33,635 bases of DNA. It comes from Candidatus Puniceispirillum sp. (GTDB lineage Bacteria; Pseudomonadota; Alphaproteobacteria; Puniceispirillales; Puniceispirillaceae). The translations under genes were made by a program, and so were the position numbers. Below the pieces are notes generated by a model, which worked only from the letters and a program-made list of their open reading frames with translations, was not told the DNA's origin and searched no databases. The stretch is from NCBI GenBank assembly GCA_016778895.1, contig JADHOR010000005.1:1-33635 (forward strand), in the 5' to 3' direction. How positions within the stretch are numbered: position 1 is the first letter of the stretch; every line of letters starts with the position of its first letter. Below are positions 4,824-29,917 of the stretch, piece by piece.

Positions 4824-5000
4824 GGCTATGCTGGCTCCGTTATACTGGCCCGATTATGTCGATTTTCTGCCCTATATTGGCCTTGTTTCATTTGCAAATT
4901 AAAGGCTAATGGTGAGAGCCAGCAGCCAGGCTTATGAGCAATAGGCCGATGGGCTTGGCAGGTTTGTTGCGGGTTGAATGATGGGAAGTGGGAGACCAAA

Positions 5001-5693
5001 ATGGCAGACCGAATTGCGCTTGTTGATGATGATCAGAATATTCTGACCTCGGTATCGTTAACACTTGAGTCTGAGGGCTTTGAGGTTGATTGCTATCATG
5101 ATGGCGAGGCGGCGCTTGTGGGGCTTGCCAGACGGCCGGCCAATCTTGGTGTGTTTGATATTAAGATGCCGCGCATGGACGGAATGGAATTGCTGCAAAA
5201 AATACGCAGCCAGTCACAGATGCCAGTTATCTTCCTGACCAGTAAAGATGATGAGCTAGACGAGGCGCTTGGTCTTGGGATGGGCGCAGATGATTATATC
5301 ACCAAACCGTTCTCGCAGCGATTATTGCTGGCCCGTATTCGTGCTGTGCTGCGCCGTGCCAGCGGCGGGGCAATGAAAGCAACGGGGCCAAATGTCATCC
5401 GCCTTGGTGAATTACTGATGGATCCTGACCGCCATTTATGCAGCTGGCGCGGTCAGGAGGTAAAGCTGACGGTGACCGAATTTCTAATTCTGCAGGCGCT
5501 CGCATCGCGTCCAGGCATGGTGAAAAATCGTGACCAGTTAATGGATGCTGCATATGGCGAGAGCATTTTCCTCGATGATCGCACCATCGACAGCCATATC
5601 AAGCGGCTCCGTCGCAAATTACGCGTGCATGACGCGGATTTTGACCAGATAGAAACGCTTTATGGCATCGGCTATAAATACAAGACATCATAA
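5001..5693 (+). CDS. chvI: Response regulator ChvI (OmpR family)
   Basis: This is the DNA-binding partner of the ChvG sensor in the alphaproteobacterial envelope/acid-stress two-component system. The 230-residue protein has a receiver domain with the acidic pocket DDD (9-11), phospho-acceptor Asp53 in [11 protein letters not shown], Thr80 in FLTSKDD, and Lys102 in TKPF. A C-terminal OmpR-type winged helix follows (about 130-230; [15 protein letters not shown] and YGIGYKY). ATG 5001 is chosen because GGGAG sits seven bases upstream. The frame could start earlier, at TTG 4974, but that adds residues not typical of the family. chvG follows in the same direction. In many relatives pckA lies next to chvI; here polA does. 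Confidence 0.93.
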
Positions 5694-5835
5694 ATGTCGC
5701 GCTGCGATGCCGAACGCGGCATAATGGCGGTGGTATGTTTCTGGTATTTATGGTGATCTCCGAGGGAGCGGGACTATCGAGACTTCGCGTTGGCGTCGAT
5801 TATCTAACAGGATCCGTGGCAGGCTGCAAAGACTT

Positions 5836-7413
5836 GTGACGCCGTTTCGCATGAGCCGGCTGACTGCGCGGATCATGGCAATTATGCTGTTTCCGCTGGC
5901 TATTTTTCTGGTTGGGCTGCTGTCGCTCGACCAATATCGCACCACCTTAATCCAGTCAGAATTTGTTGCGCTTGAACGGCAGGGTTTTACCCTCGCACGG
6001 TCACTGGCGCTGGCCGAGGCGGATCGTGACCGGCGCGCTGCCCGCCGCCAGCTTTCGCCTGAAACCATGACCCATCTGTTGCCACTTGTTGGCCTTGGCA
6101 GCTCGTTGCGGGCGAGGGTGTTTCAGCCGAATGGCGTGCTGCTTGCTGATACGGCACGGCGTAGCGGCTTTCAGCCAAATGTTGATATCCGGCGGCATCA
6201 AGGCAAAAGCTGGCATCGGCAAACCCGTAACTTTCTGAATAATATGGTGACGGCGGCATCAGGCTGGTTTAGCCCGTATGATGAATTGCCCGAATATGTT
6301 GAGCGACGACGTCAACGCGCCAGCCATTATGCCGAGGTAATCGCGGCGCTGTCCGGTGAGCCACGCCGTGCATTGCGCATTGACCGAGATGGTAACCTGT
6401 TGCTGTCAGTTGCAGTGCCAGTGCAGAATTTACGCCTTGTCCGGGGTGCTTTGATGGTTTCAATTGGCGGCGGCAAGATTGAAAAAGAGTTGGCGAATGT
6501 GAATATCGTATTTCTGCAGCTATTTGCTGTGGTGCTGTTGGTCACGCTTGGCCTCAGCCTTTATCTGGCGCGATCCATCACAAGGCCGATTTCACGATTG
6601 GCAGCGGCGGCCGATAAATTGCGGCAAAGCGCGGATATGTCCAGCCGTCTACAGCGCCTGCCGCATCGCAATGATGAAATTGGTCGATTATCGGACTCGC
6701 TGATTGAACTGACCGATGAATTGCAAAAGCGTATTCAGGCCACCGCGGCTTTTGCCGCTGATGTGGCGCATGAAATTAAAAACCCGCTATCATCTTTGCG
6801 GAGTGCCACCGAAACCTTTAGCCGGGCAAAAACTGCGGCGCAGAAAAAAAAGCTGCTGGCGGTTATTCTTCAGGATGTGCAGCGTCTGGATCGTTTGATT
6901 AGTGATATTTCCCAAGCCAGCCGTGTTGATACTGAGATTATCGAGCAAGGCCGTGATCTGGTCGATTTTTCCAGCTTGATAGACAATTTCCTTCAGATGC
7001 GTGCGCAAACCTATAGCGAGCATAAATTGCTGTTTGAAAAACCGACAATGCAGATAATGCTGCGGATAAATGAGAGCCGGATCGTTCAGGTCATTGATAA
7101 TGTGCTTAGCAATGCGATTTCCTTTAGCCCAAAACAGGGGGCGGTAAAGTTTGTCCTCAGCCATGAAGTTGCTGAAAAAAAGGCAGTCTTGGATATATTG
7201 GATGACGGTCCCGGGATACCCGAGAGCAAGCTTGATACCGTGTTTAAGCGGTTTTATAGCGAACGGCCGCACGGCGAGAATTTTGGTGAACATTCTGGCC
7301 TTGGCCTGTCGATTGCGCGGCAGATTGTCGAAGCGCATAATGGTAACTTAACCGCCTCAAACAGGCTTGGTGGCGGTACCCGCTTCCGGCTGGTTTTGCC
7401 AACGGAAAGCTAA
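5836..7413 (+). CDS. chvG: Sensor histidine kinase ChvG (5' end uncertain)
   Basis: This is the membrane sensor kinase that would phosphorylate ChvI. From GTG 5836 it encodes 525 residues. TM1 is about residues 12-28 (IMLFPLAIFLVGLL), followed by a periplasmic domain of about 190 residues and TM2 at about 222-243. Then come a HAMP segment, a HisKA dimerisation helix with His312 in DVAHEIKNP, and an ATPase domain with the N-box NVLSNAISFSP, G1 DDGPGIP and G2 SGLGLSIARQIVEAH. The 5' end is unclear. The frame is open back to 5725 and the extra codons encode a basic cytoplasmic segment (SRWRRLSNRIRGRLQRL) typical of ChvG N-termini. A strong ribosome-binding-like GAGGGAG (5762-5768) precedes an in-frame ATC at 5776, but there is no ATG, GTG or TTG. 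GTG 5836 has a poor ribosome binding site. Confidence 0.92.
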   Translation: MTPFRMSRLTARIMAIMLFPLAIFLVGLLSLDQYRTTLIQSEFVALERQGFTLARSLALAEADRDRRAARRQLSPETMTHLLPLVGLGSSLRARVFQPNGVLLADTARRSGFQPNVDIRRHQGKSWHRQTRNFLNNMVTAASGWFSPYDELPEYVERRRQRASHYAEVIAALSGEPRRALRIDRDGNLLLSVAVPVQNLRLVRGALMVSIGGGKIEKELANVNIVFLQLFAVVLLVTLGLSLYLARSITRPISRLAAAADKLRQSADMSSRLQRLPHRNDEIGRLSDSLIELTDELQKRIQATAAFAADVAHEIKNPLSSLRSATETFSRAKTAAQKKKLLAVILQDVQRLDRLISDISQASRVDTEIIEQGRDLVDFSSLIDNFLQMRAQTYSEHKLLFEKPTMQIMLRINESRIVQVIDNVLSNAISFSPKQGAVKFVLSHEVAEKKAVLDILDDGPGIPESKLDTVFKRFYSERPHGENFGEHSGLGLSIARQIVEAHNGNLTASNRLGGGTRFRLVLPTES

Positions 7414-7450: not shown

Positions 7451-8323
7451 ATGTCAAATCCTATTTCTGCATTAAAGCTTGTGCTGGTGACAGGTGTTTC
7501 AGGTGCCGGTCATTCGACTGCGTTGAAAATTCTGGAGGATTATGGTTTCGCCGCAGTCGATAATCTGCCGTTAGCGTTGGTCGATCCCTTGATCGCGCTT
7601 GAGGTTGAAACTTCCGGCCGGTCGATTGCCATCGGACTTGATGTCCGCACCACAGGATTTGGAGCTGATGCAATCGCACGCCTGGTGAAAAATCTGGCGA
7701 AGCGGCTCGGCGATTGCTTTAAGATGGTCTTTATCAGTGCCGGCCATGCCGATTTAATGCGTCGATATAGCGCCACAAGACGCCAGCATCCGCTTGGTTG
7801 TCAGATGGATCTTGATGCGGCGGTCAGGGCTGACATGGAACGGATGACCGATGTTGAGGCTCTTGCCGATATTGTGATTGATAGCAGCGGGCTCGCCCCT
7901 ACGGATCTTCGTCGCAGCCTGCTGGAAGCGCTGCATCTCGATAAGGTGCCGCCAATGCCGGTTCATATTTTGTCATTCTCTTATCGGCAAGGTCTTCCTG
8001 AAACTGCCGATCAAATCATTGATATGCGGTTTGCGAAAAATCCGCATTGGGATGACGGGTTGCGCAATTTGACCGGGCTTGATGCCAAGGTGGCGGCGTT
8101 TCTGGAAAAGGACGATGCGGCACGAGAAGTTCTCGATCAATTCAAAGCGATGTTATCGGTTATGTTTGCGCGAATGAAGATTGATGGGCGGCCATATTTG
8201 ACGCTCGCCTTTGGCTGTACTGGTGGCAAGCATCGTTCGGTCTGGGCCGCTGCCCATATCGCAAAATGGGTCGAGGCTGAGGGGTATAGGGTGCGCCTTG
8301 AACATCGTGAATTGGCAAAATAG
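7451..8323 (+). CDS. rapZ: RapZ / YvcJ-family RNA-binding nucleotidase with variant Walker A
   Basis: In E. coli RapZ binds the small RNAs GlmY and GlmZ to control glucosamine-6-phosphate synthase; in most other bacteria its role is open. The 290-residue length is typical. The N-terminal P-loop reads GVSGAGHST (15-23): the usual Walker A Lys is His21, encoded by CAT. The family Walker B-like segment (GLDVRTTGF) and the C-terminal conserved block FGCTGGKHRSV, part of the RNA/metabolite-binding domain, are intact. Other alphaproteobacterial RapZ proteins, as I recall, often carry Arg at this position, so relaxed ATP binding may be lineage-wide. The gene follows chvG by 37 bp, probably in the same transcript. 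The hprK gene and PTS genes usually found here are missing. Confidence 0.93.
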   Translation: MSNPISALKLVLVTGVSGAGHSTALKILEDYGFAAVDNLPLALVDPLIALEVETSGRSIAIGLDVRTTGFGADAIARLVKNLAKRLGDCFKMVFISAGHADLMRRYSATRRQHPLGCQMDLDAAVRADMERMTDVEALADIVIDSSGLAPTDLRRSLLEALHLDKVPPMPVHILSFSYRQGLPETADQIIDMRFAKNPHWDDGLRNLTGLDAKVAAFLEKDDAAREVLDQFKAMLSVMFARMKIDGRPYLTLAFGCTGGKHRSVWAAAHIAKWVEAEGYRVRLEHRELAK

Positions 8324-8462: not shown

Positions 8463-9857
8463 ATGACGTCTGATTATACGATTGCCGATATTGGTCTCGC
8501 TGAGTGGGGACGCAAGGAATTATCAATCGCTGAAACCGAAATGCCCGGTCTCATGGCGCTACGCGATGAGTTTGGTTCAACCAAGCCATTGGCTGGTGCA
8601 CGGATCGCTGGTTGTCTTCATATGACGGTGCAAACTGCGGTCTTGATCGAGACGCTGGTCGAGCTTGGTGCTGATGTGCGCTGGTCGAGCTGCAATATCT
8701 TTTCAACCCAAGATCACGCTGCCGCAGCGATTGCCCAATCCGGTGTTCCGGTGTTTGCAATTAAGGGCGAGACCTTGGCCGATTACTGGGAATATGTTGA
8801 CCGTATTTTCGACTGGCCGAATGACCTGACTGCCAATCTAATTCTCGATGATGGCGGCGATGCAACCATGTATATCCTGCTTGGCGCACGGGCCGAGGCT
8901 GGTGAGGATGTGTTGGCGAACCCGGAAACCGAAGAAGAGGAATATCTAAAGGCGCAACTCAAGCGCCGTCTGGCCAGCAGCCCGGGCTGGTTCACCCGTC
9001 AGCGTGACGCGCTAAAGGGCGTTTCCGAAGAGACAACCACCGGTGTTTTACGCCTCTATCAGCTTGCTGAAATGGGCGGGTTGCCGTTCCCTGCGATCAA
9101 TGTGAATGACTCTGTTACCAAGTCAAAATTTGACAATTTATATGGGTGCCGCGAGTCACTGGTTGACGGTATTCGCCGTGCAACCGACGTAATGCTGGCC
9201 GGCAAGGTTGCTGTGGTTGCGGGCTATGGTGATGTGGGTAAAGGGTCGGCAGCATCGCTTCGTCAGGGCGGGGCACGGGTGATGGTTACTGAGGTTGACC
9301 CGATCTGTGCGCTGCAAGCAGCAATGGAAGGTTATGAAGTCGTGACCATGGAACAGGCAGCACCAAAGGCTGATATCTTTGTTACTGCGACCGGCAATCG
9401 GCATGTGATCACCATCGACCATATGCGTGATATGAAAGACCGTGCGATTGTCTGTAATATCGGCCATTTTGACAATGAGATTGATGTTGCGTCGCTGAAT
9501 AATATGACATGGTCAGAAGTAAAGCCGCAGGTTGATGAGATCGAATTTCCTGACGGCAAGCGGATGATCCTGCTTGCGAAGGGGCGTCTGGTAAATCTTG
9601 GTTGCGGTACTGGCCACCCGTCATTTGTGATGTCAGCATCCTTTACAAATCAGGTTCTGGCACAGGTTGAGCTTTGGTCGCGTGGTGATCAATATGAAAA
9701 CAAGGTCTATACCTTGCCGCGCCACCTCGATGAAAAAGTTGCCGCTCTGCATCTGGCCAAGGTTGGCGCAAGCCTCAGCACTCTTCGCCCTGATCAGGCC
9801 GATTATATCGGGGTGAAACAGCAAGGCCCGTTCAAGAGCGAGCAATATCGCTATTAA
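8463..9857 (+). CDS. ahcY: Adenosylhomocysteinase
   Basis: This NAD-dependent enzyme hydrolyses S-adenosylhomocysteine to adenosine and homocysteine, removing the inhibitor produced by methyltransferases. The 464-residue protein has the substrate-domain motifs [13 protein letters not shown] and [13 protein letters not shown], the catalytic Lys/Asp region [11 protein letters not shown], and the NAD-binding Rossmann motif [10 protein letters not shown]. It ends in the usual aromatic tail (EQYRY). It also has the insertion of about 40 residues after [10 protein letters not shown] that is typical of bacterial long forms. ATG 8463 follows the purine-rich ATAGGATAG. The 139-bp leader shows no SAH riboswitch that I can recognise. 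The gene normally closes the chv-PTS cluster in alphaproteobacteria, and does so here without the PTS genes. Confidence 0.97.
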
Positions 9858-28468: not shown

Positions 28469-28930
28469 CTAGGCGGCAACGTTACTGCGGTTTGCCAGGC
28501 ACCGCAGTAACGTCTCGGCAGTTTTGGCCTGGCGAAGCTGATTGCAAACAGCAACGTCACCAAGCGATCTTGCCACGATTGAAACGCATTTTAAATGATC
28601 GCTATCAGCGTCCTGTGGGCCGATCACAAGGCACACGATATCAACTGGCTTTTTGTCGGCCGCATCGAAATCAATCGGTTTGGCGAGAACAGCAATGATG
28701 CCAATTGTGCGTGTCAGTTCGCCATGCACGGCATGGGGAATCGCAATCCCGCCGCCAATCGCGGTGCTGCCAAGACGCTCACGGCGCATGATCATCTCGA
28801 AAAGGCAGCGTGGGGAAATGCCAGTAAGCGCCGCACCATGCTCGGCAAGCTGCTCAATCAGCTGCTTTTTACTGCTGCTGACAACGCCCACCATTATCTG
28901 GCCGGTGGCGATATAATCAATGATGGACAT
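28469..28930 (-). CDS. ptsN: PTS IIA-like nitrogen regulatory protein PtsN (EIIA-Ntr)
   Basis: EIIA-Ntr is the terminal phospho-acceptor of the nitrogen-related phosphotransferase chain (PtsP-NPr-PtsN), which regulates potassium, nitrogen and stress functions. It does not transport sugar. The 153-residue length is normal. The phosphorylatable His66 lies in GIAIPHAVHGEL, with the family Arg-Glu-Arg segment MRRERLGSTAIGGG just before it. ATG 28930 has AGGT upstream. In relatives the order is lptB-rpoN-hpf-ptsN; here it follows lptB directly after 125 bp, with its own promoter. The last codons contain a perfect 13-bp inverted repeat. Confidence 0.93.
   Translation of the reverse strand: MSIIDYIATGQIMVGVVSSSKKQLIEQLAEHGAALTGISPRCLFEMIMRRERLGSTAIGGGIAIPHAVHGELTRTIGIIAVLAKPIDFDAADKKPVDIVCLVIGPQDADSDHLKCVSIVARSLGDVAVCNQLRQAKTAETLLRCLANRSNVAA
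28479..28513 (-). repeat. Perfect 13-bp hairpin inside the 3' end of ptsN
   Basis: ACGTTACTGCGGT (28479-28491) and ACCGCAGTAACGT (28501-28513) are exact reverse complements with a 9-nt loop. The element encodes the final residues TLLRCLANRSNV of PtsN and ends 7 bases before the stop codon. No T-tract follows on the minus strand, so it is not a classic intrinsic terminator. Confidence 0.75.
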
Positions 28931-29009
28931 AAAAAGACCTGTAAAATGAATCCTGCCCTAACATTGCCAGCCCGCCAGTTGCGGCGGCCTTCAGTACCAA
29001 GGCGGCGGA

Positions 29010-29038
29010 GGTATAGGATGTGCACGATAGGCTGTCAA
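29010..29038 (-). promoter_or_regulatory. Sigma70-type promoter for ptsN
   Basis: On the minus strand a perfect TTGACA (29033-29038) is followed, after exactly 17 nt, by TATACC (29010-29015). It lies in the lptB-ptsN gap. Transcription would start near 29003, about 73 nt before the ptsN ATG. This suggests that ptsN is transcribed independently of the lpt genes. Confidence 0.7.
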
Positions 29039-29055
29039 GCGGTGATCGCCGGCTT

Positions 29056-29838
29056 TTAGATGCTAAAACGCTCACCAAGATAAACTTGGCGGACACCGCT
29101 ATGCTGAACCACCTCATCGGGGGTGCCCTCCATCAGCACAGTGCCATCATGGATGATATAGGCACGATCTACAATTTCGAGTGTTTCACGAACATTGTGA
29201 TCGGTAATCAAAACGCCAATTCCATGGGTTTTGAGATGGCTGATCAGATCACGGATTTCACCAAGTGCAATCGGGTCAATGCCTGCAAGTGGCTCGTCGA
29301 GCAGCAGGAATGTTGGGCGCGCGGCAAGGGCGCGTGCAATTTCAAGGCGGCGGCGTTCACCTCCTGAAAGGCTGACTGACGGGGTGTTACGAAGATGCGT
29401 GATACCAAATTCGGCCATGAGGTCATCTAAGGTGGCGTCGCGCTCATCTTCGTGATCTTCCAGCGTTTCAAGAACGGCGCGGATATTCTGCTCAACGGTT
29501 AAGCCGCGAAAAATGCTGGATTCCTGGGGAAGATAACCCGTGCCAAGGCGAGCGCGCTGGAAAATTGGCATGTCAGTAACGTCGCGCCCGTCAATAAAAA
29601 CCTGGCCTTCATCAGCGGGCAGCAACCCGGCAAGCATATAAAAAGTTGTGGTTTTGCCGGCGCCGTTGGGCCCAAGCAGGCCAACTGCTTCACCGCGTTG
29701 CAGCCCAAGCGATACATTGCGGACCACGCGCCGTTTGTTGAAGCTTTTACCAAGACCTTTGGCGCGCAGACCCTGACTCCCGGTCACCAAAACTGGCCGC
29801 GCCATTCCAAAATCTAATTCTATATTGTCAGACACCAT
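29056..29838 (-). CDS. lptB: LPS export ABC transporter ATP-binding protein LptB
   Basis: LptB is the cytoplasmic ATPase that drives LptFG to extract lipopolysaccharide from the inner membrane into the LptC-LptA bridge. The 260-residue protein has Walker A GPNGAGKT (56-63), the Q-loop YLPQESSIFRGLTVEQN, signature SLSGGERRRLEIARAL, Walker B FLLLDEPLAGIDP, and the switch His in LITDHNVRETL, all matching LptB closely. ATG 29838 has AAGGGC just upstream; the open frame runs to 29907, but the extra 23 residues are unlike the family. LptF and LptG are not in the window. A promoter lies in the 132-bp gap after lptA. Confidence 0.96.
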   Translation of the reverse strand: MVSDNIELDFGMARPVLVTGSQGLRAKGLGKSFNKRRVVRNVSLGLQRGEAVGLLGPNGAGKTTTFYMLAGLLPADEGQVFIDGRDVTDMPIFQRARLGTGYLPQESSIFRGLTVEQNIRAVLETLEDHEDERDATLDDLMAEFGITHLRNTPSVSLSGGERRRLEIARALAARPTFLLLDEPLAGIDPIALGEIRDLISHLKTHGIGVLITDHNVRETLEIVDRAYIIHDGTVLMEGTPDEVVQHSGVRQVYLGERFSI

Positions 29839-29887
29839 GATGCCCTTTTTTATAGCGATCAGGCTTTGACACCCCCATTCACGCTTC

Positions 29888-29917
29888 TTTATCGGCCGAT
29901 TAATCACTAATTGTCAA
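29888..29917 (-). promoter_or_regulatory. Candidate promoter for lptB
   Basis: On the minus strand a perfect TTGACA (29912-29917) is followed after 18 nt by GATAAA (29888-29893), a four-of-six match. It lies in the lptA-lptB gap and would start transcription near 29880, about 42 nt before the lptB ATG. LptB could then be made beyond read-through from lptCA. Confidence 0.5.

Follow-up and report, generated by a model that had tools for sequence, protein, structure and literature searches.

A RapZ protein with histidine at the Walker A lysine position in a SAR116 bacterium, and the variation of this residue across Alphaproteobacteria

RapZ is a regulator of cell wall metabolism, encountered here in a marine SAR116 (Puniceispirillum-like) bacterium. 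Its gene lies in a stretch of 33,635 nucleotides, which we refer to as the window, and it raises a simple question: what does the P-loop of the RapZ N-terminal domain do when the lysine of its Walker A motif has been replaced, in this case by histidine? The features of the locus to which we refer are the following.

7451..8323, plus strand: rapZ (RapZ/YvcJ family, 290 aa), an open reading frame with PF03668 and PF22740 above cut-off and with E. coli RapZ and the Rv1421 N-terminal domain as best solved structures
7475..7936, plus strand: N-terminal kinase-like domain (RapZ-like_N domain match)
7493..7519, plus strand: P-loop (Walker A position) GVSGAGHST, residues 15-23, from the sequence
7511..7513, plus strand: His21 codon CAT at the Walker A lysine site, from the sequence; His in 12/12 non-identical genus members
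8213..8242, plus strand: GCTGGKHRSV block of the C-terminal domain, residues 255-264 (sulphate/malonate, putative GlcN6P pocket)
8264..8320, plus strand: 19-residue C-terminal tail, divergent from the RNA-binding tail of enterobacterial RapZ, from alignment
4992..7413, plus strand: response regulator and sensor kinase upstream of rapZ, from Pfam; we take this pair to be ChvI/ChvG-like
8463..9857, plus strand: ahcY (S-adenosylhomocysteine hydrolase) downstream of rapZ, PF05221

The gene encodes a RapZ with both domains, as judged from matches to PF03668 (N-terminal RapZ-like_N; E 2.3e-33, 115.6 bits against a curated cut-off of 25.4) and PF22740 (C-terminal RapZ domain; E 5.7e-39, 133.5 bits against a curated cut-off of 27). 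The whole N-domain frame is present (G15, G18, G20, D37-N38, R105, R110-R111 and H113-P114), and the family motif GCTGG[KR]HRSV is found in the intact form that the first-pass annotation had described. The canonical NTPase signature GxxxxGK[ST], on the other hand, is broken by His21, which precedes the Ser/Thr. An AF2 model, built from 16 sequences and used for fold (pLDDT 88, pTM 0.61), places a strand (residues 10-15), a loop and a helix (residues 21-30) at the P-loop. A structure search with this model returned, after RapZ itself, shikimate- and adenylate-kinase-type kinases as the closest folds to the N-domain (Z up to 13.2), the shikimate kinases with 14-21% identity; these P-loop kinases are enzymes with the canonical lysine.

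Among characterised relatives, E. coli RapZ (5o5o, 5o5q, 8b0i, 8b0j) shares both domains, the P-loop frame and the GCTGGKHRSV block with the window protein (259 residues aligned to 5o5o_B, 36% of them identical) but has lysine where the window protein has histidine. The YvcJ proteins of B. subtilis and E. faecalis belong to the same family and bind UDP-GlcNAc, for which they need a lysine that in the window protein is histidine. The N-domain of M. tuberculosis Rv1421 (9m1q, 9m1v) resembles the window protein in that its Walker lysine is naturally replaced, reading GRG against GHS, and superimposes on the window model with Z 20.7 and an rmsd of 2.1 (9m1v; 154 aligned residues, 36% identity). 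The first-pass statement that characterised RapZ proteins have lysine at this site thus holds for E. coli RapZ and YvcJ but not for Rv1421, for which an arginine form is already published, according to the excerpted report (PMC11229554). The genomic context of Rv1421 is actinobacterial, and the GlmR homologue Rv1422 adjoins it (PMC11229554).

The change to His is real and particular to RapZ. The sequence agrees with the first-pass reading of GVSGAGHST at 7493-7519, with His21 (CAT, 7511-7513) at the Walker A lysine position, and a shifted register offers no lysine next to it: the loop aligns to both E. coli RapZ (GRSGSGKS) and Rv1421 (GLSGAGRG) with no gap. All 12 non-identical RapZ proteins of the genus have His21, encoded by CAT in ten and CAC in two, even though their identity falls to 62% and the genus has invariant residues in only 142 of 281 columns. 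Histidine was also found in 11 of 11 named relatives (L031-L041; 64-90% identity to the window protein), recorded as SAR116, Candidatus Puniceispirillum or less precisely named alphaproteobacteria, a count that overlaps with that of the genus since at least three of them are probably the same records as genus genomes. Four other P-loop proteins in the window have a normal GK[GST] sequence; TsaE was identified by Pfam, as was the ABC fold in LptB, and the other two are presumably an ABC ATPase and Cmk. The TsaE lysine is kept in 49 of 49 genomes read, out of 101 of the window's order, and 41 of the 47 genomes read for both proteins have a RapZ without lysine. An assembly or sequencing error was ruled out by the constancy of His in the genus, the synonymous CAT/CAC codons and the TsaE control. 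A shift in alignment register was ruled out because the P-loop glycines G15, G18 and G20 are conserved in 267 of 267 RapZ sequences, which fixes the register of position 21.

The check proposed in the first-pass annotation, a tabulation of RapZ orthologues across Alphaproteobacteria, revealed variation wider than Lys and Arg alone. We found 287 RapZ rows. Removal of L001 (identical to the window), L111 (a fragment) and duplicate proteins reduced these to 267 non-identical sequences with 126 Lys, 65 Arg, 31 His, 23 Leu, 9 Ile, 5 Tyr, 4 Met and single Asn, Gln, Thr and Cys at position 21. Lysine is therefore no defining feature of the sampled family, 141 of the 267 being without it. In the window's order (61 rows from its own genome, genus, family and order) the residue is His in 24, Leu in 17, Lys in 9, Tyr in 5, Ile in 4, and Asn and Met in one each, so that 52 of 61 have neither Lys nor Arg. 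Elsewhere in the class, 134 rows hold 59 Arg, 58 Lys, 6 His, 5 Leu, 3 Met and one each of Gln, Thr and Ile; RapZ was detected in 168 of 289 class genomes, of which 165 belong to families other than that of the window, and the 31 RapZ of these that were left unread were partly chosen out and partly the weakest matches. Other classes of the phylum contributed 65 rows, read out of 104 genomes with RapZ, 29 of them as best-scoring loci, which favours the consensus; these rows comprise 58 Lys, 4 Ile, 2 Arg and one Cys. Seven further named rows complete the set, with 4 Arg, one His, one Leu and one Lys, the last (L046) from a Lachnospiraceae metagenome-assembled genome outside the phylum.

Within the order the residue follows the genus: His in genera g1, g3, g5 and g10, Leu in g2, g4 and g8, Lys in g7, Asn in g6 and Met in g11, with Tyr, Ile or Leu in family f2. 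Outside the class, the four Ile rows (L267, L282, L283 and L284) come from one genus (g263, family f174), with the P-loops GCSGAGISS or GYSGAGISS, apparently an independent loss of the lysine. On a FastTree tree calculated with the column masked, position 21 requires at least 55 residue changes, of which at least 16 run between Lys/Arg and other residues. We did not find Gly, Ala, Ser, Pro, Asp or Glu at this position among the 267 sequences, a pattern shared by 5 of the 46 columns that change about as often, which weakly suggests that side-chain length may matter at this site and charge may not. As the first-pass annotation had stated, other alphaproteobacteria do have Arg here (59 of 134), and CAT is one base away from the Arg codon CGT. 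What we describe is a clade-wide variant of a known protein. Among the literature matches listed, judged by their titles and abstract starts, none dealt with the His, Leu, Ile or Tyr forms or with how the residue varies among Alphaproteobacteria.

A RapZ match was obtained for 62 of the 101 genomes, none of them from f3 or f4, two sister families of the order; RapZ therefore seems dispensable there.

The residues around position 21 behave very differently from it. G15, G18, G20, D37, H113 and P114 are present in 267 of 267 sequences, D30, N38 and R105 in 266, P40 in 265, R110 in 264 and R111 in 262, whilst G255, C256, G258, G259, H261, R262 and S263 of the C-domain block are each found in 266. 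By the measure that gave at least 55 changes for position 21, G15, G18, G20, D37, R105, H113 and P114 show none. Within the genus, the median dN/dS of the N-domain is 0.077 (39 of 66 pairs, those with dS between 0.05 and 2) and that of the C-domain 0.133 (35 pairs); the N-domain is under purifying selection. Decay of the whole domain was ruled out by this low dN/dS and by the lack of stops inside the RapZ matches listed. Variation in the P-loop and pocket thus lies at the lysine, and constraint is relaxed on this one side chain and not on the pocket. The earlier idea that the lysine is under relaxed constraint across the clade is consequently borne out in that the site is labile class-wide, but has to be narrowed to a single side chain, and His itself is fixed in the genus, where it does not drift (12/12).

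On balance, and with modest confidence, we favour the interpretation that this RapZ is functional and that its N-domain is a ligand-binding regulatory switch rather than an NTPase in need of the Walker lysine. The switch would probably be non-hydrolysing. In such a mechanism the P-loop backbone and the invariant arginines would still grip a diphosphate ligand, for which UDP or UDP-GlcNAc is the likeliest candidate; hydrolysis would be weak or absent, and binding of the ligand would alter the tetramer and through it the C-domain, whose putative GlcN6P pocket may report amino-sugar status to a protein partner other than GlmZ. The literature on RapZ and Rv1421, taken together with the conservation pattern, supports such lysine-independent binding of a diphosphate ligand by loop backbone and arginines. 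In E. coli RapZ, the excerpted structural report describes a sulfate at Walker A held mainly via backbone amides and a Walker B motif that is apparently disordered (PMC5737377), and the excerpt of a later study has the path of GlmZ missing Walker A and B and proposes the N-domain as an allosteric switch whose ligand is not known, with preliminary UDP-GlcNAc data (PMC9841335). Rv1421, with Arg instead of the Walker lysine, was stabilised in thermal shift assays of its N-domain by UDP (+9.3 degrees, at 5 mM ligand), UDP-GlcNAc (3.5), ADP (3.0) and ATP (+1.3) (PMC11229554), and 9m1v is a crystal complex of Rv1421 whose listed title breaks off at 'in complex with u'. The weakened or absent NTP hydrolysis predicted for the His form by the first-pass annotation is plausible.

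More broadly, although here we would put our confidence somewhat below even, the N-domains of Alphaproteobacteria RapZ may be lysine-independent P-loop sensors, in which the pocket is otherwise kept, the lysine was lost or exchanged on many separate branches and a UDP-sugar or other diphosphate is read without hydrolysis. If true, binding would be naturally split from catalysis in a P-loop within one orthologous family. The excerpted papers assign different roles to the domain, the E. coli RapZ authors an allosteric switch and the Bacillus authors NTPase activity and lysine-dependent UDP-GlcNAc binding (PMC9841335, PMC7525490). The natural series of Arg, His, Leu, Ile, Tyr and Lys forms with the pocket kept offers variants for parting binding, hydrolysis and regulation, and caution is warranted when RapZ is annotated as an ATPase.

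The mutants of YvcJ give weight to an alternative possibility, which is that the N-domain is purely structural, building the domain-swapped tetramer and binding no ligand, with the C-domain as the sensor and an empty pocket freeing the lysine to vary. In the excerpted reports, UDP-GlcNAc binding was lost in B. subtilis YvcJ K22A, for which loss of ATP binding and hydrolysis is also described (PMC7525490), and in E. faecalis YvcJ K18A, which lost function as well; these Lys-to-Ala forms without ligand binding mean that the Leu, Ile or Tyr forms could be ligand-free, and the K18A protein was as stable as the wild type (PMC10986989). Activity of E. coli RapZ, moreover, needs the quaternary structure (PMC9841335). 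Alanine, the residue of the YvcJ mutants, is itself absent from position 21 among the 267 sequences. Nevertheless, an empty pocket is difficult to reconcile with the conservation of G15, G18, G20, D37, N38, R105, R110, R111, H113 and P114 (262-267 of 267) in a set of which 141 sequences lack the lysine, or with an N-domain dN/dS that lies below that of the C-domain in a genus with the His form, and we consider a purely structural role unlikely, at about one chance in five. A little more doubtful still is that the N-domain continues to hydrolyse nucleotides or to transfer phosphate, with an invariant LID-type arginine, or His21 or Arg21 itself, taking over the role of the lysine. R66, R105, R110 and R111 are indeed nearly invariant (260-266 of 267), Arg is about as frequent as Lys in other alphaproteobacteria (59 versus 58 of 134) and the fold is nearest, RapZ aside, to kinases of the shikimate and adenylate kinase types; however, the Leu, Ile, Tyr, Met and Asn forms (23, 9, 5, 4 and 1, or 42 of 267) bring no charge to position 21, and no compensating column was found, as 0 of 4324 column tests passed Bonferroni correction (best p 0.00044; 134 class rows, 117 with Lys/Arg and 17 with other residues). 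When the SAR116 order was added to such a column scan, the p values became very small, but one clade confounds them and they were set aside.

A very improbable explanation, in our estimate, is that selection on the RapZ lysine was lifted by loss of the HPr/HPr kinase phosphorelay. It draws on the near absence of this system from the 101 genus, family and order genomes, with HPr kinase over cut-off in one, HPr in one and Enzyme I in none, and on gene order, hprK being the immediate upstream neighbour of rapZ in 84 of 114 loci of the class and in 0 of 66 of the order (the latter with 1.2 kb or more of upstream sequence, and with some genomes counted twice). Yet the order is one clade and makes one count, and across the class we rejected a tie between lysine variation and HPr kinase loss, since HPr kinase accompanies 90 of 117 Lys/Arg forms and 14 of 17 other forms (Fisher p 0.76), while a tree-aware test had four supported pairs, too few for significance.

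Returning to the regulatory switch, a further matter is what the C-domain would sense. The first-pass annotation had taken the GCTGGKHRSV block as a sign of retained RNA or metabolite sensing, and for RNA we found no support, given a divergent tail and a genome in which GlmZ went undetected. According to the excerpted reports, the RapZ RNA-binding domain is confined to Enterobacteriaceae (PMC7073468), and the pocket residues of E. coli RapZ matter also for GlmZ binding (PMC9841335), so the GCTGGKHRSV block alone is compatible with an RNA ligand. The basic C-terminal RNA-binding tail of GlmZ-binding enterobacterial RapZ was not found in the window protein, which agrees with E. coli RapZ at 6 of 19 tail positions and ends three residues earlier. 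A search for GlmZ (RF00083) gave no hit in the window's genome (0/1; 99.6% complete, 61 contigs) and detected the E. coli control; GlmS is present. Metabolite sensing would thus appear likelier than RNA sensing as the retained function, and the window RapZ may still have an RNA role.

Some observations on the phosphotransfer genes of this group stand apart from the question of the lysine. In the window, no hprK lies between the response regulator/sensor kinase pair and rapZ. Ten more of the 101 genomes had HPr kinase matches, all below cut-off. The single HPr and the single over-cut-off HPr kinase share one contig (G056:C19; L218 and L221), beside a frame that we take to be EIIA-like; as this SAR116 assembly has 7% contamination, both may be foreign and the contig is possibly a foreign one. 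Neither Enzyme I nor HPr was found in the window's genome despite the presence of ptsN (EIIA-Ntr-like, PF00359; 28469-28930, minus strand), leaving an EIIA-Ntr without known phosphate donors. This ptsN keeps an IPH motif, presumably the site of the phosphorylated histidine. The usual gene order in this region is lptB-rpoN-hpf-ptsN; in the window (28469-29907, minus strand) rpoN is missing from it, and sigma-54 is encoded elsewhere in the genome (G000:C57).
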